The notes below the pieces were generated by a model that did not search any database, was not told where the DNA came from, and saw only the letters and a list, made by a program, of their open reading frames with translations. Positions 18,214 through 41,523 of a stretch of DNA of 44,516 nt are shown here, one piece after another (position 1 is the stretch's first letter; each line of letters begins with the position of its first letter). The position numbers and the translations under genes are program-made. This DNA comes from a bacterium. GTDB lineage: Bacteria > Chloroflexota > Chloroflexia > Chloroflexales > Kallotenuaceae. The stretch covers positions 1 to 44,516 of the forward strand of contig JADDQF010000078.1 of assembly GCA_016781505.1 (NCBI GenBank), written 5' to 3'.

Positions 18214-18810
18214 TTGGCGCAGGTACAACAACCTCCCGCAGATGCGATTCGCGATGAGCAACTGATCGAAGACGTAGCTCGGGGGGATCGCCATGCCATC
18301 GAAGTTTTGTACGATCGCTACTCATCGGCCGTCTTTGGCCTCGCGCTAAAAACGCTGCGCGACCGAGAGGCGGCTGAAGAAGCCGTACAGGAAGTCTTTT
18401 GGCGCGTCTGGCAGCGCGCGAAAAGCTTTGACCGCAATCGCTCGTTTGCGCCCTGGCTTTTTGGTATTGCTCATAACTACTGTATTGACGAGTTACGGCG
18501 GCGACGTGCTCGGCCGCAGTCGGTTTATGAAGACGATGAACATCCAATCCTCAGTGGTATTGCCGATAGTACGGATGTTTCGGAGGCGGCGCTGGAGTCG
18601 GAGCAGCGGCGGATCGTGCAAAGCGCGCTGCAGCAGCTGCCTGTGGAGCAACGGCAGGCGCTGGAGCTGGCCTATTTTGGCGGTCTAACGCAGCAAGAAA
18701 TAGCGGCGCGGCTCGGCAATCCCCTGGGAACCATAAAAACGCGGATGCGGCTTGGGCTTCAAAAACTACGCGGCATTTTGCAGGGGCAATACGTTCCGGA
18801 ACAAGGTTGA
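18214..18810 (+). CDS. ECF-type RNA polymerase sigma factor
   Basis: The 198-residue protein has only sigma regions 2 and 4. Region 2 includes YDRYSSAVFGLALKTLRD, AAEEAVQEVFWRVW and APWLFGIAHNYCIDELRR. Region 4 is LPVEQRQALELAYFGGLTQQ followed by EIAARLGNPLGTIKTRMRLG, a helix-turn-helix that reads the -35 element. The start is TTG at 18214, supported by AAGGA about ten bases upstream; no ATG fits the N terminus. The anti-sigma gene follows after 41 bases, the standard arrangement, so the factor is probably held inactive at the membrane until a signal releases it. Its regulon cannot be told from the window. Confidence 0.93.
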   Translation: MAQVQQPPADAIRDEQLIEDVARGDRHAIEVLYDRYSSAVFGLALKTLRDREAAEEAVQEVFWRVWQRAKSFDRNRSFAPWLFGIAHNYCIDELRRRRARPQSVYEDDEHPILSGIADSTDVSEAALESEQRRIVQSALQQLPVEQRQALELAYFGGLTQQEIAARLGNPLGTIKTRMRLGLQKLRGILQGQYVPEQG

Positions 18811-18851
18811 GGCCTGAGTACGGGACTGTACGAAGAGGGTAGATCACATCC

Positions 18852-19646
18852 ATGGAGATGCACGCGGAGCACATTGAGGAGCTGGCTGAGGGCTATGCGC
18901 TGGGAGCGCTCGAGCCAGGGGAGCGCGTCCGTGTCGAACAACATATCGCCGCTTGCCCCCCTTGCAAGCGGCATATCGATAGTGTTGAAGATACGACGCA
19001 TATGCTGGCGTTTGTCGCTACGCCGGTTGCGCCACCGCCTCGGTGCAAGTTGAAACTAATGGAAAAGGTAGCGCGCGAGCAGTTTTTGCAAACGCCTACT
19101 CGTCGGTCGCGAACCGTCAACGCTATGTCGATGTGGGCAGCCGTCGCCACAGTTGCGTTTATCATGAGTGGCGCGTGGAGTATGCGGCTGCAACAACAGT
19201 TATCCGAGGTAACTGGAGCGCAAAATCAAATACAGGGTCAGCTGGCGTCGCTGCAAACAGAGCGCGCAACCATGACGGCGCAGATTGCGCAGCTAACGAC
19301 GCTGGAATCGGTGGTGGTCGCGGCCGAGGCAGTCCGTTCGCTCCATGGCGCGGGTTCTGCCGCCAACGCCTCCGCCAAAACATATATGACACCCGGCAAA
19401 AATGAAGCTGTGTTGATCGTCCATAATTTGCCGCAATTGCCGCCCGGCAAGATCTATCAGGTCTGGGTTGCACGACCGGAGCTGCAGCAGCCATTGACGA
19501 TGTTTAATCCGGTCGACACAACGGAGCCGGTGCCACTTCAGCCGCCTGAGCCAATGGATAGCTACAATTGGATCATGGTGACGATTGAGGATGCTGCGGG
19601 TGCTCAGCAACCCAGCAAAGACACGGTGCTCTTCGGCGAGTTGTAA
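18852..19646 (+). CDS. RskA-type membrane anti-sigma factor with ZAS domain
   Basis: The 264-residue protein has an N-terminal zinc anti-sigma domain with the H-x3-C-x2-C motif (His31, Cys35, Cys38 in HIAACPPC). One membrane segment at about residues 93-110 follows, then a coiled-coil stretch (QQQLSEVTGAQNQIQGQL). The C terminus is an extracytoplasmic RskA-like domain with KIYQVWVARPE. The ZAS part should bind the sigma factor encoded just upstream; the outer domain should sense an envelope signal. ATG at 18852 is used; 18858 is also possible. Release would require site-1/site-2 proteolysis or a redox change at the zinc site, which cannot be decided here. Confidence 0.9.
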   Translation: MEMHAEHIEELAEGYALGALEPGERVRVEQHIAACPPCKRHIDSVEDTTHMLAFVATPVAPPPRCKLKLMEKVAREQFLQTPTRRSRTVNAMSMWAAVATVAFIMSGAWSMRLQQQLSEVTGAQNQIQGQLASLQTERATMTAQIAQLTTLESVVVAAEAVRSLHGAGSAANASAKTYMTPGKNEAVLIVHNLPQLPPGKIYQVWVARPELQQPLTMFNPVDTTEPVPLQPPEPMDSYNWIMVTIEDAAGAQQPSKDTVLFGEL

Positions 19647-19961: not shown

Positions 19962-20651
19962 TCACAATCGTAGCGTGTCGGGCCAATGTTGCTGCAGTAC
20001 GCGCGCCTCTTCATCCGCGATCACGGCGATGCCAAGGGGATTGGGATGAATATTGGTCCACCAGCGTACATCGCCGGCGTGCAGGTGATCCTGGCCTGCC
20101 CCCAGCACCGGTATCTCCTCGTCCACCACGCCATACCCCCGCACGCGCAGGTCCCAGTTGCCCTGGGCGGTTTCTTGCCGCATGCGCTCGTACACGTCCA
20201 CCACGGGGTAGCCATCACGCTGGCCGAGCTCGCGAATAACTTCATAGATTGGCTGCAAAACGGGGTTGCGGTCGAACTCGTAGTGCGCGGGATAGTCTAC
20301 GTACATACCGGTTTCAAGCAGCAGCCGGACATTGGGAAAGTCGGTTCGCAGCTGGTGGCACAGTTGATTGAGGTAGGTGCGAAAGCCATCAACACCATGC
20401 GCCTTGCGATCGTTTACGCCATACCGTACAAAAACATAGTCTGGCGCGGCGTTACGTCTAAATGTGCGCTCGTAGCGCTTCAAAAACTGCGCAACGGTCT
20501 CGCCATCCAAGCCCTCGTTGGTGACCACACATTCATCTTGCGGGTAGCGCTGCCGGAGCAGTGTTGCGAGAACCTGCTCGTTCTTGAGGCGCGGCGGCAA
20601 GTAGGAGGTCGCCAATGTACAATCGCCAATCATGATCAGATGCACAGCCAT
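19962..20651 (-). CDS. SGNH/GDSL-type hydrolase with Cys at the nucleophile position
   Basis: The 229-residue protein follows the SGNH block pattern. Block I is MIGDCTLATSY at residues 7-17, where a GDS-T-x-A motif is usual. NEGLDG is block II and YGVNDRK is block III with its Gly and Asn. The C-terminal TNIHPNPLG supplies the catalytic His, preceded by Asn where Asp is common. The nucleophile serine is replaced by Cys11 (TGT, one base from a serine codon). There is no signal peptide. It is the last gene of a leftward unit behind the membrane regulator, 48 bases away. Activity on esters may be weak or altered, or the protein may have become a binding protein; the fold assignment itself is good. 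Confidence 0.8.
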   Translation of the reverse strand: MAVHLIMIGDCTLATSYLPPRLKNEQVLATLLRQRYPQDECVVTNEGLDGETVAQFLKRYERTFRRNAAPDYVFVRYGVNDRKAHGVDGFRTYLNQLCHQLRTDFPNVRLLLETGMYVDYPAHYEFDRNPVLQPIYEVIRELGQRDGYPVVDVYERMRQETAQGNWDLRVRGYGVVDEEIPVLGAGQDHLHAGDVRWWTNIHPNPLGIAVIADEEARVLQQHWPDTLRL

Positions 20652-20699: not shown

Positions 20700-22607
20700 T
20701 TACCGCTCGTGTTCTTCCATCAAGGCCAGCTGCCGTGCCACTTCTTCCACGGCCACGCGCTGCTTGCGATAAAAGTCGGACTCGCTCATGGCCAGCTTGA
20801 GGGCAATGTCGCGAATGCGCAGGCCTTGCAAAAAGCGCAGATGCAGGATGTTGTACAACATCCATTCCTGGGCAGTCGCGTCCAATTGATCGTCCGGCCG
20901 CAGATTCTCAATCGCCCGCCGCAGAACGGCCTGGAGGGCTTTGGTCGAGCTGCCGGTTTCGTGGAGGCCGTTACGCACGGCGCGCATGCCCAGCAGCGGG
21001 CTTTCGGAAAGCTTGGGCCCGCCCCAGTAATGCTTGAGCGCATCCTGGACAAGTTGGTCGAAGTTGGGCAGAAGCGCCACGTCGGCTTCAAGCTGCTCCA
21101 GCGTGGCCGGTGTTACCGTTTCTAGGTGGGCTGAAAGTTGCTGCAAGGTTTGCATTTCCGGGGTCAGGCCGCGCAGCGCGCCATAGATCCGCTCTTGGAG
21201 CTGCACGTTTTCAAGGGCGAGCTCCATTTGGTGCGCCAGCGTGCCGATCAGGCGGCGCACTTCCAATGTCGCGCCAGAGGTGGGACACGCCACGCCAACG
21301 ACGCCCAGAAACTCGCCGGCCGCCGTGGTCAGCGGCAGGATACAATACCCATCGACGGGCAGAAAATCCAGCTCGTCGGGCACGGCGTTGCGCTGCCGCG
21401 GCGGTAGCTGGCGCGCTTGTTCCAACAATTCAACCAGCTTGTGCTGGGCGAAAAAACGCTTGATCTCATGCCGCGGCCCGACCGATGCCTTGACCAGCGC
21501 GCCGTCACCCTCGGGCGCGGCCACAAATCCACGCTCCGCCCGCATCGCGCCACAGATCGTTACCAGCGTATTTTCAAGCAGGCGCCGCAGGTCGGTCCGG
21601 GTAAAGGCTTTGCGGTCGAACCGGCGCAGCAGCTGCAGCTGATCCCGATCGCGCCACAGCAGGATATTGTCCAGCCGCGGCCGTAAATAGTCGATCAGGT
21701 TAGGGATCACCACGGTGAACATCATGATGCCGAAGATCACGATTGTATCGCGCGGCAAGCCCACGACATTCTCAAGCAGTGGCAGCACCTGAAAGCAAAA
21801 GATGACCATCACGCCGACGAAAGGCCCAACCAGGAGCCAGCGGATAAAATCTTGCTTAACGACCCGATCCGGCAGCAGCGCACCCTGGTAAGCCACGCTG
21901 TAGGTCAGCACCAAAATCATGGCGCCCACGCCGATATTGGTGATGATTGCCAAAAACAGCACAACCGAAGGCGGCAACGCCGCGGCGAAGCCAGCAACGA
22001 TCAGATAAGGAAACACGCCGAGGCCGGGCGCTAAAAACGACAAGCCCAGGTAGATTAAGCGGCGGCGTGAGGCTGGAGTGGTATGGAGCCGACGGGCTCG
22101 ATAAATATTGTACAGCCCGCCAATGGTGACCACGCCAAACCAGACCGCAAACAGGCCAAAGAGCGGGCCGGCCATCAGTTGCTCTAATGGGCCACGTTGA
22201 AAGCGTGCTCGCACCAGCAAACCTGTGGCCGCGGCTAGTCCAAAAAAGACGGCGGCGGCAAGATAGCCGCCGAGCACCGCCCAGCGCCGTCGGAGCGACT
22301 GGAGCCCAACCGAGGTAAGCAGCGCATCAGAAAGATGGAGGTAGGCAGCCGGCACCAGAACAATGCCCAGCCATTGCGCCCGCAGCAGAAATTGACGGGT
22401 ATCGGGCCGGCTGGCCTTGTCGATCAGCACATCGCCACTAAACACAATCACAACGCCAAACAGCAGCAGGGCCGTTGCCCGCGCTACCGGATTGCGCCAG
22501 TTACGCGTGGTGATATAAAACAGAAGCGAAAATGTAACGACAAGAATCGCCTGCGAAACGAGAATATTAAAGCGCAGCAGCGCGTCTGTGATCGACAAAA
22601 ATTGCAT
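20700..22607 (-). CDS. Membrane sensor with GAF domain and C-terminal helix-turn-helix
   Basis: The 635-residue protein starts with about eight to nine membrane spans (residues 10-310) resembling the N-terminal membrane sensor module of some histidine kinases. A short amphipathic link (LDNILLWRDRDQLQLLRRFD) leads to a GAF domain (about 345-475, with ERGFVAAPEGDGALV and YCILPLTTAAGEFLGVVGVA). There is no HisKA, ATPase or GGDEF domain. The C terminus has a helical region and a sigma-4/HTH-like end, LRFLQGLRIRDIALKLAMSES then DFYRKQRVAVEEVARQL. I infer a membrane-tethered transcription regulator. An extended -10 box lies 35 bases upstream; no Shine-Dalgarno is clear. Confidence 0.75.
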   Translation of the reverse strand: MQFLSITDALLRFNILVSQAILVVTFSLLFYITTRNWRNPVARATALLLFGVVIVFSGDVLIDKASRPDTRQFLLRAQWLGIVLVPAAYLHLSDALLTSVGLQSLRRRWAVLGGYLAAAVFFGLAAATGLLVRARFQRGPLEQLMAGPLFGLFAVWFGVVTIGGLYNIYRARRLHTTPASRRRLIYLGLSFLAPGLGVFPYLIVAGFAAALPPSVVLFLAIITNIGVGAMILVLTYSVAYQGALLPDRVVKQDFIRWLLVGPFVGVMVIFCFQVLPLLENVVGLPRDTIVIFGIMMFTVVIPNLIDYLRPRLDNILLWRDRDQLQLLRRFDRKAFTRTDLRRLLENTLVTICGAMRAERGFVAAPEGDGALVKASVGPRHEIKRFFAQHKLVELLEQARQLPPRQRNAVPDELDFLPVDGYCILPLTTAAGEFLGVVGVACPTSGATLEVRRLIGTLAHQMELALENVQLQERIYGALRGLTPEMQTLQQLSAHLETVTPATLEQLEADVALLPNFDQLVQDALKHYWGGPKLSESPLLGMRAVRNGLHETGSSTKALQAVLRRAIENLRPDDQLDATAQEWMLYNILHLRFLQGLRIRDIALKLAMSESDFYRKQRVAVEEVARQLALMEEHER

Positions 22608-22642: not shown

Positions 22643-22651
22643 ATTATACCA
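22643..22651 (-). promoter_or_regulatory. Extended -10 promoter of the membrane-regulator unit
   Basis: On the minus strand TGG precedes a perfect TATAAT (22643-22648). The predicted leader to the ATG at 22607 is about 28 bases. The box lies 20 bases after the end of the small membrane-protein gene. Confidence 0.65.
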
Positions 22652-22668: not shown

Positions 22669-22932
22669 TTACCCGACGATGGTCATGCGTAACGCAAGCA
22701 CCAAGGCTAGCCCCCCGCTGGCTAGCCCAAGGACGAGCAGCAGGCGCTGCAGCTGCGGTAACACGTCCAGCATCAATGCGCCATAGCAAGCCATAAAGCC
22801 GGCAAGCGACAGCCAAAAGGCAGCGTCCCACCATGCGTGTTGCCCCACGCCCACAAACAGCCCAAAGCCGAGCATCAGCCCGGCGAACAGCAGGAGTCCT
22901 CGGCCAGTGGTTGGATCGCCTGGGTTTAACAT
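22669..22932 (-). CDS. Small three-TM membrane protein
   Basis: The 87-residue product has three hydrophobic helices at about residues 13-30, 36-56 and 62-84 with short polar turns, and no recognised domain. GGAG lies about 12 bases before the ATG, a rather long spacing. It precedes the membrane regulator on the same strand and might be its partner, but a separate promoter between them weakens that idea. The 290 bases upstream, to the kinase gene, hold no supportable gene; TACAAT near 23077 is the only promoter-like box seen there. Confidence 0.55.
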   Translation of the reverse strand: MLNPGDPTTGRGLLLFAGLMLGFGLFVGVGQHAWWDAAFWLSLAGFMACYGALMLDVLPQLQRLLLVLGLASGGLALVLALRMTIVG

Positions 22933-23222: not shown

Positions 23223-26200
23223 ATGGCGGATATGACACTTGAGGCCGGTCCTGCCGTTTCGTCGCGTTGGACGCAATGGGCCGGCCCGCTCGTCACGCTT
23301 GCAACGCTCCTCATTATTGAAGCGTTGTCGCAGACGGTGCTGGTCATCCCTAATCCTGCACCCATTTACCTGATGGCTGTTGTGTATGCGGCCTTTGTCG
23401 GTGGGCTGCTCCCAGGCTTAGTGAGCGCAGGCCTGACCTTTGTGTATGCGCTGTACTTTTTTGCCACGCCTGGGCAGCTCCTGGGCTACACTCCCGATAA
23501 CCTTGCTCGGATTTTCGTGCTGGCGATTGTTGCCCCGGCCATGGCCGTGCTGGTGGGTATCTTGAAGCAGCGCGTCATGCGGGGGCAAATGTCGCGCACA
23601 GCCGCCGAGCGGACGCAGCAACAACTGAATGATGTTGCTGCGCAGCATCTTAAGGAGCTGCAAGATCAACAGCGCTGGCTGGAAACGATCTTGAATGTGA
23701 TGCCCACACCGCTGCTCTTGATCGAGCCAGGCACGGCGCGTGTGAGATTTGCCAACAAGGCCGCGGATAGACTGGCCGGCGGCACCTTTCCCAAAGACGC
23801 GCCCGCGGAAGACTATCACCAGGTCTATTATTGTACCTATCCAAATGGTGAACGTATCCGGGACGAGGAGATGCCGGGAGTACGGGCTGCTCGCGGCGAG
23901 CGTCTCGAACATTTTGAGATGGATTGGCAAACCCCCACTGGCAAGCTTTCGCTGATTGTGCAGTCGGAAACGCTGCCCGCGATTCATGGGCATGATGCGA
24001 TGGCCGTCGTGTCATTTCAAGATGTGACGCCTGTTAAACGGGCTGAAAGTCTTTCTGCCCGCCTTGGACGTGTTTTGGATCAATCGTCCAACGAAATTTA
24101 TATTTTTGACGCAACGACCTTGCGCTATATTCAGGCTAATCAAGGTGCCCGCCATAATTTGGGCTATACCATGGATGAGCTGGCCGCGCTCACTCCGCTC
24201 GACCTTAAGCCCGCCTATACCGCCCCCCAGTTCGACCAGCTGCTCGCTCCTCTCCGGAATGGTGAGCGCGAGCAGATCGTGTTTGAGACGCTGCACCAGC
24301 GCAAAGCTGGAACCTGTTATCCGGTTGAGGTCCGGCTGCAGCTGTCACACGCGGAAGAACCGCCGGTCTTTGTGGCCATTACTCAAGACATTACCGCGCG
24401 GGTGCGATCTGAAGCTGCGCTGCGGGAAAGCGAGGCGCGTTTTCGGGTCATGGCTGATAACGCGCCGGTACTCCTTTGGATGACTGATACGACGGGAAGC
24501 TGTACCTTTTTCAACCAGCAGTGGCTCGATTTTACTGGCCGGAACTTGGCGCAGGAGCTGGGCGAGGGCTGGCTGACGGGAGTTCATCCGGAGGACCGTG
24601 AACGTAACGAACGATCCTTTCTGCAGGCAATTCACGCGCGGGAAAAGTTCAGGATGGAATATCGCCTGCGCCGGGCCGACGGACAGTACCGCTGGGTTTT
24701 GGATACAGGCGCGCCGTTGTTCGGGGACGATGGCACGTTTGCTGGCTATATCGGCTCATGCGTTGATCTGACCGAACGCCACCAGCTTGAAACGGCGTTG
24801 AAGCAAAAAACAATCGAGCAGGAAGTTCTGCTGAATTCGATGCCCGCAGTGGTCTACTACAAAGACCGAGATTGTCGCTATGTCGCCGTTAATCAGGCGT
24901 TTGCGGAGCTTACCCAGCAACCGCTCGATGCGATCCCAGGCAAAACGGACTTTGAGCTCTTCGCACATGAGGAAGCTAGCGCCTATCGGCGTGATGATCT
25001 CGCGGTAATGGAATCCGGCCAGCCCCTGCTTAATATCGAGGAGCCAATAATCAGTGCGGATGGTTCAACCATGTGGGTTGCCTCGCATAAAACGCCGTAT
25101 CGTGATCCCCAAGGCCATGTTGCCGGCCTGGTGGGTATCAGTACCGATATTTCGGTGCGCAAGCAGGTCGAGCAGGAGCTGCGGACTCAAACCGAGACCT
25201 TAGCCATGGTGAATCGGGTCGGTCAGATCTTGTCGGCCGAGCTCGATCTGCAAAAGCTGGTGCAGGCGGTGACTGACGCAGCCACCACCTTAACTGCTGC
25301 TGCGTTTGGGGCGTTCTTTTACAACGTCAACAACGAGCATGGCGAGTCGTACACGCTGTACACCCTGTCGGGCGTGGATCGCGCAGCCTTTGCCCAATTT
25401 CCCATGCCCCGCAATACCCATGTGTTTGGGCCAACCTTCAGAAATGAAGGCATTATGCGCGTCGACGACATTACCAAAGATCCGCGCTATGGCCAGAATC
25501 CCCCGTTTGCGGGCATGCCTGCCGGTCACCTGCCGGTCGCCAGTTACATGGCTATTCCGGTCGTTTCGCGCACCGGCGACGTCCTTGGCGGTTTGTTTTT
25601 TGGCCATCCGGAGCCGGGGCGGTTTACCGAGCGTGAAGAGCAGATCATTGTCGGGCTCGTGGCCCAGGCGACGGTTGCAATGGATAATGCCCGCCTGTAT
25701 CAGGCCGAGCAGCTTGCGCGCCAAGCGGCCGAGCGCGCAACCGAACGGGTTGGCCGGCTGCAAGCGATCACCGCCGCGCTAGCGGAAGCGCTCACCACGG
25801 AGGACGTGGCCGAGGTTATTGTTGCGCAGGGCATTCCGCCATTAGGAGCTTATGCTGGCTCCGTGGCCTTGTTGGCACCCGACGGCGAAGCGCTGGAAAT
25901 TATTCGCTCTGTTGGATATGGGGCGGCCGTGATGCGCGAGTGGGGCCGCTTTCCACTCAATGCGCCCGTGCCTCTCGCCGAGTCGGTTCGGACCGGCGAG
26001 CCGATCTGGCTGTCCTCGCCGGAGGACTACCAGGCCCGCTACCCCAACTTAACAACCGTTACCTCGCAGACACAGAGCCAGGCGATTGTCAGCCTTCCGC
26101 TGTTAAGCGCCGGGCGTGCGATTGGTTCATTAGGCTTTAGCTTTGCCAAGCCTCAGGACTTTACCGCGGATGATCAAGCGTTCATGCTGGCGCTTGCGCG

Positions 26201-27905
26201 GCAGTGTACGCAAGCCCTGGTACGCGCTCAATTGTATGAATCGGAGCGCCAAGCACGTGCTGGAGCGGAGGCGGCCGAGCGTGAAAAGGAAAAAGCCCGC
26301 GCGTTGCTTGATACATTGTTCCAAGCGGCGCCGGTCGGCCTCGGCTTTCTCGATCAAGAATTGCGCTATCAGCGCATCAACGAAGCGTTGGCGGTGATCA
26401 ACGGGCTACCCGCGGCGGATCATCTGGGCCGGCCGATCAAGGAGGTGCTGCCTGATATACCGGACGCGGTGCTGGTAGCCTTGCGGCAGGTGCTGACAAC
26501 CGGCGAGCCGATTGTGAATCGCGAGGTAGCTGGCGAAATACGAACATCCCTAGGGCAGCGGCGCTATTGGCTGTCTAGCTATTATCAGGTGCCTGGGCAA
26601 CACGGCGAAGCGCAGGGCATCGGCGCGGTGGTGCAGGAGATTACGGAGCGCAAGCGAGCCGAGGAAGCGCAGCGCTTTATCGCGGAGGCGAGTGCGCTGC
26701 TGGTTGCGTCGCTCGACTACAAGACCACATTGCAAAACGTAGCACGCCTGGCCGTGCCGCGTCTGGCCGATTGGTGTGCGGTCGATATGGTGGAAGACGA
26801 CGGCACGCCGCGCCGCGTAGCTGTGATTCATGTCAATCCGGCGAAGGTCGAGCTGGCACTTGAGCTGCAGCGGCGTTTCCCAACAGATCCTCAGGCGCCA
26901 CGCGGCCTCGGTGCCGTTATTCGGAACGGGCGGTCCGAGCTCACTTCCGACATCCCGGACGAGCTGCTGGTGTCGGTTGCACCCAACCAGGAGTGGCTTG
27001 AGTTAGTGCGCCCCCTCGGCCTTGCGTCGGTGATGATTGTGCCATTGACGACGGGTGGCCGTACGCTTGGCGCCATCACCTTTGCATCAGCCGAGTCGGG
27101 GCGTCACTTTGATGCGGCCGACCTAGCCCTGGCTGAGGAGCTGGGTCGACGCGCCGCCGTCGCGGTCGATAATGCGCGCCTGTATCAGGATGCCCAGGAA
27201 GCAATTTTAGCGCGTGACGATTTTCTGTCGATCGCGTCGCATGAGCTGAAGACGCCGATCACAGCGCTCCAGCTCCAAGCGCAGAGTTTGTTGCGCCTGG
27301 CCCAGAAAGGTGACATCAGCAGGCTGTCGCCGGAACGCCTGATTACCAAGCTGCAGCTGGTCGATGAGCAGACGAGTCGCTTGACGCACCTCACCAACGA
27401 CCTGCTTGACGTGGCACGTATCCGAACGGGCCGCATCGATTTTCGCCCGGAAGAGTTCGATTTGGCGCAAGTTGTGCGTGAGGTGGTCGCGCGCTTTGAC
27501 GAGCAATTGGCCCTGGCAGGGTGCGCCGTGTCACTTCAGGCTCCGATGTCGATTTCGATCTGGTCGGATCGGTCGCGGCTTGAACAGATTATCACCAACT
27601 TGCTCACCAACGCGATTAAGTATGGAGCGGGCAAACCGATTACGCTGCTAATTGAGCAGGAGCAAGGCGTCGTACGGCTCGTCGTTCGTGATCAAGGGAT
27701 CGGCATCGCTCCCGAGCATCTGGAGCGCATCTTTGTCCGCTTTGAGCGGGCGGTTTCGTCGCGTAACTATGGTGGGCTAGGCCTGGGCTTGTACATCGTG
27801 CGTCAGATTGTGGAGGCGCTGGGCGGCACCATTCGCGTGACCAGTGAGGTCGGAGTCGGCTCGACCTTTGTGGTCACATTGCCGCTTATATCAGTCCCGA
27901 ACTAA
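23223..27905 (+). CDS. Large membrane sensor histidine kinase with multiple PAS and GAF domains
   Basis: The 1560-residue protein begins with about four membrane helices (20-115, DUF4118/MASE-like). A coiled coil, four PAS domains (about 150-270, 280-395, 400-520, 530-650), two GAF domains (about 670-830 and 850-1010), a fifth PAS (about 1030-1145) and a third GAF (about 1150-1310) follow. The dimerisation/phosphoacceptor segment [20 protein letters not shown] has His1340. The ATPase domain has [18 protein letters not shown] and [13 protein letters not shown], so it should be an active kinase. There is no receiver domain and no response regulator gene adjacent, so its output partner lies elsewhere. 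AAGGA precedes the ATG. The many input domains suggest integration of light, redox or small-ligand signals, but no chromophore Cys or haem ligand can be assigned by eye. Confidence 0.93.
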
Positions 27906-34970: not shown

Positions 34971-37604
34971 TCAGAGCGAAAGGTTGGGACGATCATCCTC
35001 GCTCAGAACCTCGCGTGAACGGCTGCCTTCCGCCGGCCCGACCACGCCCTGCTGCTCCAGCAGCTCGATCAGCTGGGCTGCCTTGGAGTAGCCGATGCGC
35101 AGCCGCCGCTGCAACAGCGAGGCCGAAGCACGCTCATGCTGCCGCACCAGCTGAATTGCTTTAGGCAGCAACTCATCCTGCTCACTGTCGGTCAGGTGGC
35201 CGGTATGCGCATCCGGCAAAGCCGACACGGTAACGGTTGGCTGCTCGTGCTCCTCGGCAGCAGCACCATCACCAGGCTGGGTGTCGCGCTGGATGGGCTT
35301 GAGCGGCAAGGGCTTGGGGCCACTCTGCTCGCTCGTCGGCTTTTGGGCTGCCCGCCAGAAGCGCGCAATCCCCTCGATCTCTTTGTCCGACACGAAGGTG
35401 CCTTGCACCCGGATCGGCTTGGACGCGTCCGAGGCCAGGTACAGCATGTCGCCTTTGCCTAGCAGCTGCTCAGCGCCATTTTGATCCAAAATAACGCGTG
35501 AGTCGGTTTGTGAGGTAACAGCGAAAGCCATGCGGGTAGGGAAATTGGCCTTGATGAGGCCCGTCACTACATCGACCGAGGGCCGTTGGGTCGCCAAAAT
35601 CAGGTGGATGCCGATGGCACGGGCCATCTGTGCCAGCCGGCAGATCAACGTCTCAACTTCGTCGGGCGCCATCAACATCAGGTCGGCCAGCTCGTCGATA
35701 ATGATCACGATGTATGGCAGCGGATCACTCCCTGCCGTGCCTTTCCGTGCGGCAAGGTTGAACGATTCGATGTTGCGGTAGCCCTTTTGGGCCAGCAGCT
35801 TATAGCGGCGCTCCATCTCACGGACAGCCCATTTGAGCAGGCTCACAACGCGCTCCAGCTCCGTTACCACCGGCGCCAGCAGATGGGGTATGTGGTTGTA
35901 CATCACCATTTCCACCATCTTGGGATCGACCATGATGAACTTGAGGTCGTCCGGTGTGTAGTGGATGAGCAGTGTACAAACAATGGAATTGATGGCTGCT
36001 GATTTGCCCGCGCCGGTTGCCCCGGCGATCAGTAGGTGGGGCGCTTTGGTCAGGTCGGTGATTACCGGCGCGCCCGACAGGTCCCGCCCCAGGGCGAGCT
36101 TGAGCTTGCCCTTATGCTGTGCAAACGCATCGGTATCGATCACTTCCTTCATCGACACCGATGAAATAGCGGAGTTAGGCACTTCAATGCCGACGTACGA
36201 TGTGCCCGGAACCGGCGCTTCGATACGCACCGAAGGCGCGGCCAGGGCCAGGGCTAAGTCTCGCTCCAGACCGGTAATCCGGCTCACTTTGATGCCAATC
36301 GCCGGCTGCAGCAGATATTGCGTAACGGCCGGCCCGACCTTCATGTTGCGGACCTGTGCTTCGATCTTGAACGATGCCAGCGTGTCTTCGATGACCCGCG
36401 CCTTGGTGCGCTTCTCGTTGTCGTCGACCTCGCTCTCGCTGAAATCGTCCAGCAGCGCGACACTGGGGATGGGCCATGCTTGCCGCGGGCCGCTGGCGTC
36501 GATCGTGGCGATCTCGGCCTCTTCGGCCTCTTTCTTAAGCTGAGCCTCCTGCTTGTCGGCCGCGCGCTTGGTGTTGGCGGGCGGAGTAGCTTGGTAGCTA
36601 GCGCCATCTGCCTGTTCTGGCTTCACTGCTGGCGGCAGCTGAATGCGCTGGGTTTCGGCGTTGGCGAGGGCGGCTCGCTGCTCATTCGTCGGCACGTTGA
36701 CCTTGATCGTTTCCCCTGTTGCCGCCCCTTCAGCGCGGTTGAACAGATTGGCTTGGGTTGGCCGCGCGGCGATCGGGGTGAAAATAACCTGCTGGACCGG
36801 CTGTTCATTGCCAGCCTCGGAAGCAAGCCGTGTCTGAGCGCCGCCATTCAGTGCAGGTGGCTGCGTGCGTGGCAGGCCGCGCTTGCTCTTGAGTTCTTCG
36901 GCAAATGGCACGGGCTCCTGCGCAAGCTCGTCGTCAGGGTTGTGCTCCTCCACCTGCGGGCCACGAAGCGCCGTCCACAAGCTACTGAGCGCTGCCTGTG
37001 TATGGCTCAAGATTTGGCGCAGCGTCACGTTAAAGGTCAGCATCACGCCCAGCACAAAGACGAGCGTCAGCAGCACGCCCGCACCTGCCACCCCGAAGGA
37101 CTGCATCAGCAGCAGGTCGATCGCGCCGCCGATCGAACGTGGCGCATCGAGCTGGTCGGCGAAAATAACGGCGGTTGACGCGAACTCGGTTGCAGAAAGC
37201 AGCACAATCGCCAGCAGGATCACGCCCGTGATGTTGCCACCCGAGATCGGGGCGTCCACAAAGCGTTCTTGCCACAGGATCAGCCCACCCACCGCGATAA
37301 ACAGCACCGGCAGCACAATGCCGCTGTTGCCAAACGCACGCTGGACGATATCGACCAGGCCCTGCCCGACAACGCCCCGATTCGCGCTGCCCAGCAGAAC
37401 CAGCAACAGCAGGCCCAGGCCGATCAACACAAACGCAAACATTTCGCGCTGCTGCTGAGGCGATAGCCACGGTTTGTGCTGTGCGGCGCTGCGACTGCTA
37501 GCTTTCCGCGCCGAGCTGCTGCGGCTCGGCGCGGATTTGCGCTGCGTCGGGCTGCTTTTAGGCGACCCCGCCGCGGATTTGGATTGTGATCGCTTGTGGG
37601 CCAT
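34971..37604 (-). CDS. ftsK: FtsK/SpoIIIE-family DNA translocase
   Basis: The 877-residue protein pumps DNA through the division septum and loads chromosome-dimer resolution. A basic Ser/Lys-rich N terminus precedes four membrane helices (about 55-75, 90-112, 125-145, 170-195). A long, variable Gln/Ala/Pro-rich linker follows to about 360. The motor has Walker A GATGAGKS and Walker B VIIIDELADL, plus LATQRPSVDVVTGLIKANFP. The C terminus is the winged-helix gamma domain (LPKAIQLVRQHERASASLLQ and RRLRIGYSKAAQLIELLEQQ) that reads KOPS/SRS-type DNA signs. No Shine-Dalgarno is clear at ATG 37604. The gap upstream holds a heptamer-repeat array. Confidence 0.95.
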   Translation of the reverse strand: MAHKRSQSKSAAGSPKSSPTQRKSAPSRSSSARKASSRSAAQHKPWLSPQQQREMFAFVLIGLGLLLLVLLGSANRGVVGQGLVDIVQRAFGNSGIVLPVLFIAVGGLILWQERFVDAPISGGNITGVILLAIVLLSATEFASTAVIFADQLDAPRSIGGAIDLLLMQSFGVAGAGVLLTLVFVLGVMLTFNVTLRQILSHTQAALSSLWTALRGPQVEEHNPDDELAQEPVPFAEELKSKRGLPRTQPPALNGGAQTRLASEAGNEQPVQQVIFTPIAARPTQANLFNRAEGAATGETIKVNVPTNEQRAALANAETQRIQLPPAVKPEQADGASYQATPPANTKRAADKQEAQLKKEAEEAEIATIDASGPRQAWPIPSVALLDDFSESEVDDNEKRTKARVIEDTLASFKIEAQVRNMKVGPAVTQYLLQPAIGIKVSRITGLERDLALALAAPSVRIEAPVPGTSYVGIEVPNSAISSVSMKEVIDTDAFAQHKGKLKLALGRDLSGAPVITDLTKAPHLLIAGATGAGKSAAINSIVCTLLIHYTPDDLKFIMVDPKMVEMVMYNHIPHLLAPVVTELERVVSLLKWAVREMERRYKLLAQKGYRNIESFNLAARKGTAGSDPLPYIVIIIDELADLMLMAPDEVETLICRLAQMARAIGIHLILATQRPSVDVVTGLIKANFPTRMAFAVTSQTDSRVILDQNGAEQLLGKGDMLYLASDASKPIRVQGTFVSDKEIEGIARFWRAAQKPTSEQSGPKPLPLKPIQRDTQPGDGAAAEEHEQPTVTVSALPDAHTGHLTDSEQDELLPKAIQLVRQHERASASLLQRRLRIGYSKAAQLIELLEQQGVVGPAEGSRSREVLSEDDRPNLSL

Positions 37605-40879: not shown

Positions 40880-40908
40880 ATTATACCAAACTACCGTACA
40901 TCTGTTCA
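40880..40908 (-). promoter_or_regulatory. Extended -10 promoter of the UDG gene
   Basis: On the minus strand TGG precedes a perfect TATAAT (40880-40885), 11 bases before ATG 40868. TGAACA (40903-40908) is a four-of-six -35 match at 17-base spacing and overlaps the end of pgsA. Confidence 0.7.
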
Positions 40909-41523
40909 ACTACGAAACAGTGGCGCGGCTTTGCGCAGATACTCATAGCCCGAGTAGATCGTCAGCAACACGGCTGCCAGCATGACCCAGTAACCCAGGC
41001 TCAGAAAGAGTGCAACCAGCCGAAGCGGCCCGGCTGGATCAAACAGCGTCGGCAGGGTTGAGCTATCCAGACTGCCGTTCGCAAATCCGGCACTGGCCGC
41101 TACCAGCATCCACACAATGGCGATAATCGTGGTCAACATCTTGTGCTTGCCCCACTTGTCGGCCGGAATGACCATCCCTTCCGCCGCCGCGAACGATCGC
41201 ACTCCCGACACAATAAATTCGCGCGCGATGATCACAATGGCGATCCAGGGCGCGAGAATGCTGGCCGACACCATCGCGATCAGGGTGGCCGCCGTGTACA
41301 CTTTATCCGCTGTCAGATCAAGGAAAATGCCGATATTGCTGACCCATCCGTAGCGCCGCGCTAATCGGCCGTCAACTGTGTCGGTGATGGCCATCACCAC
41401 GAACAAAATCGCCGAGGCAAACAAGGTCCAAGGCGTAGCCATCAGAATAAGCACAACTAGTGGCACGGTGGCAATGAGCCGGCCAAAGCTTAATAAATTT
41501 GCAGGATTCCACGGAACATGCAC
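40906..41523 (-). CDS. pgsA: CDP-diacylglycerol-glycerol-3-phosphate 3-phosphatidyltransferase
   Basis: The 205-residue membrane enzyme makes phosphatidylglycerol phosphate from CDP-diacylglycerol. The CDP-alcohol phosphotransferase signature is complete: Asp48-x2-Asp51-Gly-x2-Ala-Arg-x8-Gly65-x3-Asp69-x3-Asp73. About five to six membrane helices and the N-terminal NPANLLSFGRL are typical of PgsA. GAGGA lies upstream of ATG 41523 at slightly long spacing. It is followed by a separate promoter for the UDG gene. Confidence 0.9.
   Translation of the reverse strand: MHVPWNPANLLSFGRLIATVPLVVLILMATPWTLFASAILFVVMAITDTVDGRLARRYGWVSNIGIFLDLTADKVYTAATLIAMVSASILAPWIAIVIIAREFIVSGVRSFAAAEGMVIPADKWGKHKMLTTIIAIVWMLVAASAGFANGSLDSSTLPTLFDPAGPLRLVALFLSLGYWVMLAAVLLTIYSGYEYLRKAAPLFRS

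Follow-up and report, generated by a model that had tools for sequence, protein, structure and literature searches.

According to a survey of transmembrane (TM) transcription regulators (TTRs), such proteins, which were found via Pfam DNA-binding models, are widespread, and 56% of them are single-pass (PMC10269533). In E. lenta, the 12-TM LuxR regulators DadR, HcdR, and CadR were reported to activate genes, as determined by knockout (PMC9734109). A further article mentions HisKA_7TM in archaeal kinases (PMC5847659).

The window, i.e., the whole 44,516-nucleotide stretch of DNA that was analyzed, carries a gene for a 635-aa protein with nine TM helices, a GAF domain, and a C-terminal helix-turn-helix (HTH) in one chain (Table 1). 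The ORF is intact and conserved in 126 aligned orthologues that are 28–87% identical; of the 129 orthologues available, this alignment leaves out three with fewer than 560 aa. The domain layout, the topology, the C-terminal fold, the absence of a kinase, and the wide, mostly single-copy conservation were all computed. The protein is interpreted, with a probability of roughly 0.75, as a membrane-embedded one-component transcription regulator with predicted DNA binding.

Table 1. Features of the window, with positions counted from its first nucleotide.
Feature	Position	Strand	Basis or remark
Extended -10-like promoter TGGTATAAT	22643..22651	-	35 nt before the start codon of the regulator gene
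635-aa 9TM-GAF-HTH protein	20700..22607	-	ORF; orthologues in relatives and phylum genomes
Membrane region, residues 1-320, nine TM helices, N-out/C-in	21648..22607	-	Hydropathy and loop charge, AF2 helices
HisKA_7TM-like part, residues 21-222	21942..22547	-	PF16927, E 2.7e-6
GAF domain, residues 339-465, cytoplasmic	21213..21593	-	PF01590, E 0.014; AF2 alpha/beta elements
Putative DNA-binding domain, C-terminal and sigma-4-like, extended by helices on its N-terminal side, residues 514-631	20715..21068	-	AF2, fold comparison, hhalign
Helix-turn-helix, residues 598-619, recognition helix almost invariant	20751..20816	-	126 orthologues aligned
SGNH/GDSL-type hydrolase, GDC replacing GDS	19962..20651	-	PF13472, E 1.6e-16; 48 nt downstream
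87-aa small membrane protein, upstream	22669..22932	-	ORF
1560-aa PAS/GAF sensor histidine kinase, divergent neighbor	23223..27905	+	HisKA and HATPase_c above cut-off
FtsK	34971..37604	-	Pfam
CDP-alcohol phosphatidyltransferase (pgsA-like)	40906..41523	-	PF01066, E 4.4e-33
ECF sigma factor, then RskA-type anti-sigma factor, convergent with the regulator gene	18214-19646	+	Pfam

The sequence-only reading had put the number of TM helices at about eight to nine. Nine segments were supported by mean hydropathy over the 126 orthologues, and the mean Lys/Arg content of the successive loops (0.1, 2.2, 1.0, 3.1, 1.0, 4.8, 0.2, 2.5, 0.4, and 2.1; loop borders set by hand from hydropathy and AF2 helices) alternates in the inside-positive manner, which places the N terminus outside and makes the C terminus cytoplasmic. 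The first seven helices are matched by HisKA_7TM, at 27.8 bits against the Pfam cut-off of 28.6 (0.8 bit below) in this protein and at E ≤ 0.01 in 29 of 31 orthologues, with a best value of 1.7e-14; a two-helix hairpin makes up the remaining pair. In Foldseek, the AF2 model of the TM part resembled many GPCRs (TM-score about 0.2–0.3 by query length), which was set aside as a common seven-helix arrangement and not homology.

The GAF domain, likewise noted earlier, is a weak match in this chain (16.4 bits against a cut-off of 22.4) and a better one in relatives, where GAF was detected in 13 and GAF_2 in 14 of the 31 orthologues, the best at 3.7e-6 (about 4e-6). Cys352, invariant in the first alignment, was found in 99 of 126 sequences of the larger one. 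Neither HisKA nor HATPase was matched in any of the 31 orthologues at E ≤ 0.01, in agreement with the kinase-less architecture proposed earlier, and the loss of a kinase domain by mutation in this one protein was ruled out by the same count. Receiver and phospho-acceptor domains are also absent from the chain (Pfam, 31 orthologues).

Conservation is distributed unevenly along the protein. The mean frequency of the majority residue in 31 diverse orthologues peaked at residues 601–631 (79%) and had its minimum, 48%, in the GAF region. The linker at residues 471–513 showed 49% in the orthologue alignment, compared with 68–79% in the C terminus, and was modeled with low confidence in the full-length AF2 prediction.

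By profile search, the C-terminal domain gave sub-threshold matches. Pfam DUF1492 and sigma-70 region 4 matched weakly at residues 585–622, below their cut-offs, the region 4 model at E 0.04–0.22, and the single NCBIfam match to the protein, sigma70-ECF, was also sub-threshold. No DNA-binding Pfam model reached its cut-off in the protein and no sigma-70 region 2 match was obtained. The GerE/LuxR HTH (PF00196) was matched in only one of 29 C-termini (E 0.042), and 18 of the 68 domain rows matched the ArpU model TIGR01637 at E ≤ 0.1.

Structure prediction gave a compact domain. In a first AF2 run on the full chain (23 rows), the C terminus had a pLDDT below 50, and this run was set aside for the HTH. 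AF2 prediction of the C-terminal domain from a 68-row alignment, divergent fusions included, reached a pLDDT of 92.7 and a pTM of 0.86 (protein residue = model number + 499). The HTH is formed in this model by helices 580–593, 598–604, and 609–633, preceded by helices 516–525, 542–551, and 554–568; the extra N-terminal helices of the domain are conserved (HYWGGPKL..SPLL). The region is thus not a plain coiled one, and the sigma-4-like HTH proposed from the letters alone was recovered by prediction, by fold comparison, and by profile–profile alignment with shuffle controls.

In Foldseek, the top rows for the C-terminal model were mostly sigma region 4, many with a probability of 0.97–1.00; none reached E ≤ 1e-3, and the best E was 0.12. 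VIA-align ranked the phage Q21 antiterminator first (Z 7.6), and sigma region 4 chains reached about 6–7.4; since Z values of this size can reflect a common arrangement, more weight was placed on the sequence comparison. When the domain profile was aligned by hhalign with 14 HTH sequences of the same genome (alignment A5, consisting of the genome's own sigma-4 sequences and three LuxR-type HTHs assigned by reading), a probability of 97.1% was obtained. The real score was 54.9, compared with 13.7 for the best of 100 column shuffles, 11.6 for the reversed profile, and at most 14.1 for the TM and GAF segments; the probability never exceeded 1% in the 100 column shuffles. Structure prediction, fold comparison, and profile comparison agree, and the C-terminal domain is predicted to be a sigma-4-like HTH that binds DNA.

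The putative recognition helix proved to be nearly fixed. Residues S608, E609, D611, Y613, R614, K615, Q616, and A619 are identical in 126/126 orthologues, and the mean entropy of residues 609–619 was 0.25 bit in 29 orthologues, as opposed to 1.90 bits in 39 rows from other fusions of the domain. These fusions were examined at 20 second-tier places in the phylum. The domain is N-terminal in AAA/STAND proteins (identified by Pfam in L146 and by reading in L143, L148, and L160) and in receiver-domain proteins (identified by Pfam in L144 and L152, by reading in L142 and L147). In L158 it lies next to TPR, as judged by reading, and in nSTAND2 proteins it is C-terminal (identified by Pfam in L153, by reading in L154). 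It also ends other 7TM or 7TM-GAF proteins (L145, L149, L150, L155, L156, L157, L159, and L161), where Pfam gave below-cut-off matches to HisKA_7TM in L155 and to GAF_3 in L145 and L156, the others being assigned by reading.

Such partners, i.e., STAND ATPases, receiver, TPR, and other 7TM proteins, are those that a transcriptional output domain would be expected to have. Neither Pfam nor NCBIfam yielded a family named for the domain, and this Chloroflexota output domain, common to STAND, receiver, TPR, and 7TM proteins, is apparently undescribed. The window's own genome encodes one distant paralogue (L002:399-1796, C28), a 465-aa protein with a TM region and the C-terminal domain and without GAF; it has an insertion in the HTH region, and a similar protein occurs in L159.

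An orthologue was found in 58 of 60 relatives at E ≤ 1e-10, usually as a single copy; relatives with two or more matches mostly had one gene split over contigs, and the two relatives without a match are represented by genomes that are 75% and 93% complete. The 9TM-GAF-HTH protein is near-universal and mostly single-copy in its own order. The assertion of the sequence-only reading that such proteins are rare fails on this count and also on the survey, which describes TTRs as widespread (PMC10269533).

Across the phylum, the C-terminal-domain profile matched 134 of 400 sampled genomes at E ≤ 1e-3. By hand count of rows, 95 of the 400 had matches at E < 1e-40, comprising 40 from the same order, none from the same class outside the order, and 55 from elsewhere in the phylum; a second tier followed at E of about 1e-20 to 1e-3. 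The protein is thus common in Chloroflexota but not universal. A scan of genome contigs yielded 373 confirmed relatives; the best 80 of 373, which were retained, include Chloroflexus, Roseiflexus, Herpetosiphon, Oscillochloris, Kouleothrix, Anaerolineae, and Caldilineales, and all 80 belong to Chloroflexota groups or to an unclassified bacterium. A plasmid origin was rejected (no plasmid match), as was a viral one (four pattern matches in viral contigs, none confirmed).

The word TGGTATAAT, which lies upstream of the regulator gene, occurs in four exact copies in the window as a whole (7020, 15813, 22643, and 40880), compared with 0.11 expected by chance. Of 34 non-redundant upstream regions from Chloroflexales, 21 contained GGTATAAT, compared with at most five for any 8-mer in shuffles. 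This word looks like an ordinary extended -10 promoter. In the same 34 regions, no inverted or direct repeat that could serve as an operator motif rose above shuffles.

The genes adjoining the regulator in the window had earlier been suggested as its partner (the small TM protein) and its target (the SGNH hydrolase). The hydrolase adjoins the orthologue only in the window's own family, and the 87-aa protein, which has no Pfam family, gave weak tblastn matches at two loci of the same family (L004 and L005). Since both adjoin the gene in that family alone, they cannot be general partners, and the suggestion was dropped. The Cys of the GDC motif is kept in the hydrolase homologues L032, L033, and L034, and GDC is therefore a stable variant of the window's own family. 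The histidine kinase next door on the other strand, which the earlier reading did not mention, contains DUF4118 and several PAS and GAF domains. FtsK and the CDP-alcohol phosphatidyltransferase lie 12–20 kb upstream of the regulator gene on the same strand.

Neighbors of the orthologues were compared in two samples: the best 80 of 373 loci (target called in 78) and 55 orthologues from parts of the phylum beyond the order (target called in 50). In the two and five loci omitted, respectively, no ORF fell into the target cluster. Pfam supplied the names of FtsK, PgsA, and the phosphatidyltransferase; all other genes were named by sequence reading. In the pooled samples, cdsA was directly upstream of the orthologue at 19 loci, at many of which it was preceded by rpsB-tsf-pyrH-frr-uppS, and a GNAT gene was directly upstream at 45. 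An S1-domain gene came next downstream at 31 loci, FtsK lay one to three genes downstream at 41, and a divergent pgsA-like gene stood within three genes at 10.

Downstream of the orthologue-S1-FtsK arrangement, tblastn detected a CDP-alcohol phosphatidyltransferase in 20 of 20 stretches examined, and a Lgt homologue (named by reading) was likewise present in 20 of 20. The phosphatidyltransferase directly followed FtsK in the 15 rows where the ORF caller had retained the gene; as the caller was a simple greedy one, some gaps in the neighbor rows are artefacts, and five missed phosphatidyltransferases were recovered by tblastn. A very stable string, e.g., in L226 and L267, consists of a purine nucleoside phosphorylase-like gene, a small TM protein, GNAT, the regulator, the S1 protein, FtsK, the CDP-alcohol phosphatidyltransferase, Lgt, and an ABC transporter. 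In 20 of the 78 loci of the first sample, a response-regulator or kinase gene began within 45 nt after the orthologue, and several overlapped it by 4 nt.

In the preferred reading, the nine-helix sensor (the HisKA_7TM-type bundle with its hairpin) and the cytoplasmic GAF domain would alter the activity of the C-terminal HTH, which would bind DNA with the protein still anchored in the membrane, probably acting there rather than after cleavage. No phosphorelay would run through the chain. Because the recognition helix is almost fixed across the phylum and the neighbors of the orthologue differ by clade, one ancient conserved DNA site serving a core regulon is most likely, rather than a local partner gene. 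The E. lenta 12-TM LuxR proteins, which activate transcription, offer a precedent for a regulator of this layout (PMC9734109). Against a regulator stand the lack of any DNA-binding Pfam model at its cut-off, the middling fold scores, with VIA Z values below 8, the low pLDDT of the C terminus in the full-length model, and the absence of an operator motif from the upstream regions searched.

The sigma-4-like fold could bind protein instead of DNA. One such scheme, in which the C terminus mimics sigma region 4, binds RNA polymerase or an anti-sigma factor without any specific operator, and lets the protein tether or modulate RNA polymerase at the membrane, would suit the nearest folds (sigma region 4 and antiterminator Q21), the ECF sigma and RskA-type anti-sigma genes of the window, and a near-invariant surface, which a conserved protein target would also explain. 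It is nevertheless improbable, as region 2 is absent, the receiver and STAND fusions with their varied recognition helices fit DNA readers better, and homologues of the ECF/anti-sigma pair accompany the orthologue chiefly in the closest relatives. The two-component genes that closely follow the orthologue in part of the order suggest that the regulator may not work alone. It might even be the output or auxiliary of a two-component system, acted on by a neighboring kinase and a receiver-only protein and so not truly one-component; the divergent histidine kinase in the window would fit as well. This is considered unlikely, given that most other clades have cdsA or GNAT/S1/FtsK beside the gene instead and that the chain offers no domain to receive a phosphoryl group.

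Release of the HTH by regulated proteolysis within the variable linker, followed by action in the cytoplasm, would be consistent with the low conservation and low model confidence of that segment. No protease site or partner was identified, and the 12-TM LuxR precedent is discussed as a relay from the TM domain to the HTH (PMC9734109), so that cleavage also appears to have a rather small chance of being correct. A degenerate sensor kinase, left with a functionless C terminus, is scarcely credible. HisKA_7TM and GAF are usual components of histidine kinases and would be expected in such a relic, but conservation of the protein is highest in its C terminus, and none of the 31 orthologues carries a kinase domain.

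Within the preferred reading of a one-component regulator, a more specific proposal can be put forward only tentatively, with the odds somewhat against it: the core regulator might read the membrane state through its 7TM-type bundle and, acting directly at the DNA with no phosphorelay, adjust the supply of phospholipids and lipoproteins. It draws on the linkage, in separate clades, to cdsA, pgsA, the CDP-alcohol phosphatidyltransferase, and Lgt, the first three being CDP-diacylglycerol enzymes. Other causes may keep FtsK and pgsA together, and the loci lack independence; the lipid link is therefore suggestive only.

If the regulator reading is true, a single conserved transcription regulator bound to the membrane is shared by much of Chloroflexota, the cultured Chloroflexus and Herpetosiphon among them. 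Given its fixed recognition helix, the same DNA site is predicted throughout the phylum, and determining that site once could give the regulon of all. The C-terminal domain would be a mobile output module in a phylum with poorly annotated regulators, and naming it would suggest what many STAND, receiver, and 7TM proteins probably do. The family would also offer a system in which to ask how a membrane-held transcription factor finds its DNA site.

No description of the 9TM-GAF-HTH family was found in the literature searched (subscription journals lay mostly outside its coverage). With the TTRs of the survey, the protein shares the union of TM helices with a DNA-binding domain (predicted here) in a single chain and the lack of a separate kinase; those TTRs are mostly single-pass, in contrast to the nine TM helices here (PMC10269533). 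At least one TM helix and an HTH fold are present in the chain, and no Pfam DNA-binding model reaches its cut-off; since the survey, judging from its methods, relied on such models, the family was probably missed (PMC10269533). With the 12-TM LuxR regulators of E. lenta it shares a multi-pass N-terminal membrane domain and a C-terminal HTH. Those proteins have a LuxR/GerE HTH and 10–12 TM helices, number dozens per genome, and lie beside their target enzymes (PMC9734109), whereas the family described here combines a HisKA_7TM-type bundle and hairpin, GAF, and a sigma-4-like HTH, mostly in one copy per genome over much of the phylum.

The 7TM sensor bundle is common to HisKA_7TM sensor kinases (PF16927), which have HisKA/HATPase where this protein has a TM hairpin, GAF, and HTH. 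The C-terminal domain has the HTH fold and profile similarity in common with sigma-70 region 4 and ArpU-like DUF1492; unlike sigma-70, the 635-aa protein lacks region 2 and has extra conserved N-terminal helices in this domain. The Chloroflexota STAND, receiver, and 7TM proteins (L142–L161) carry a homologous domain of 110–130 aa, with other sensors and other recognition helices. The 9TM-GAF-HTH protein is best filed among the transmembrane transcription regulators, as a variant form.
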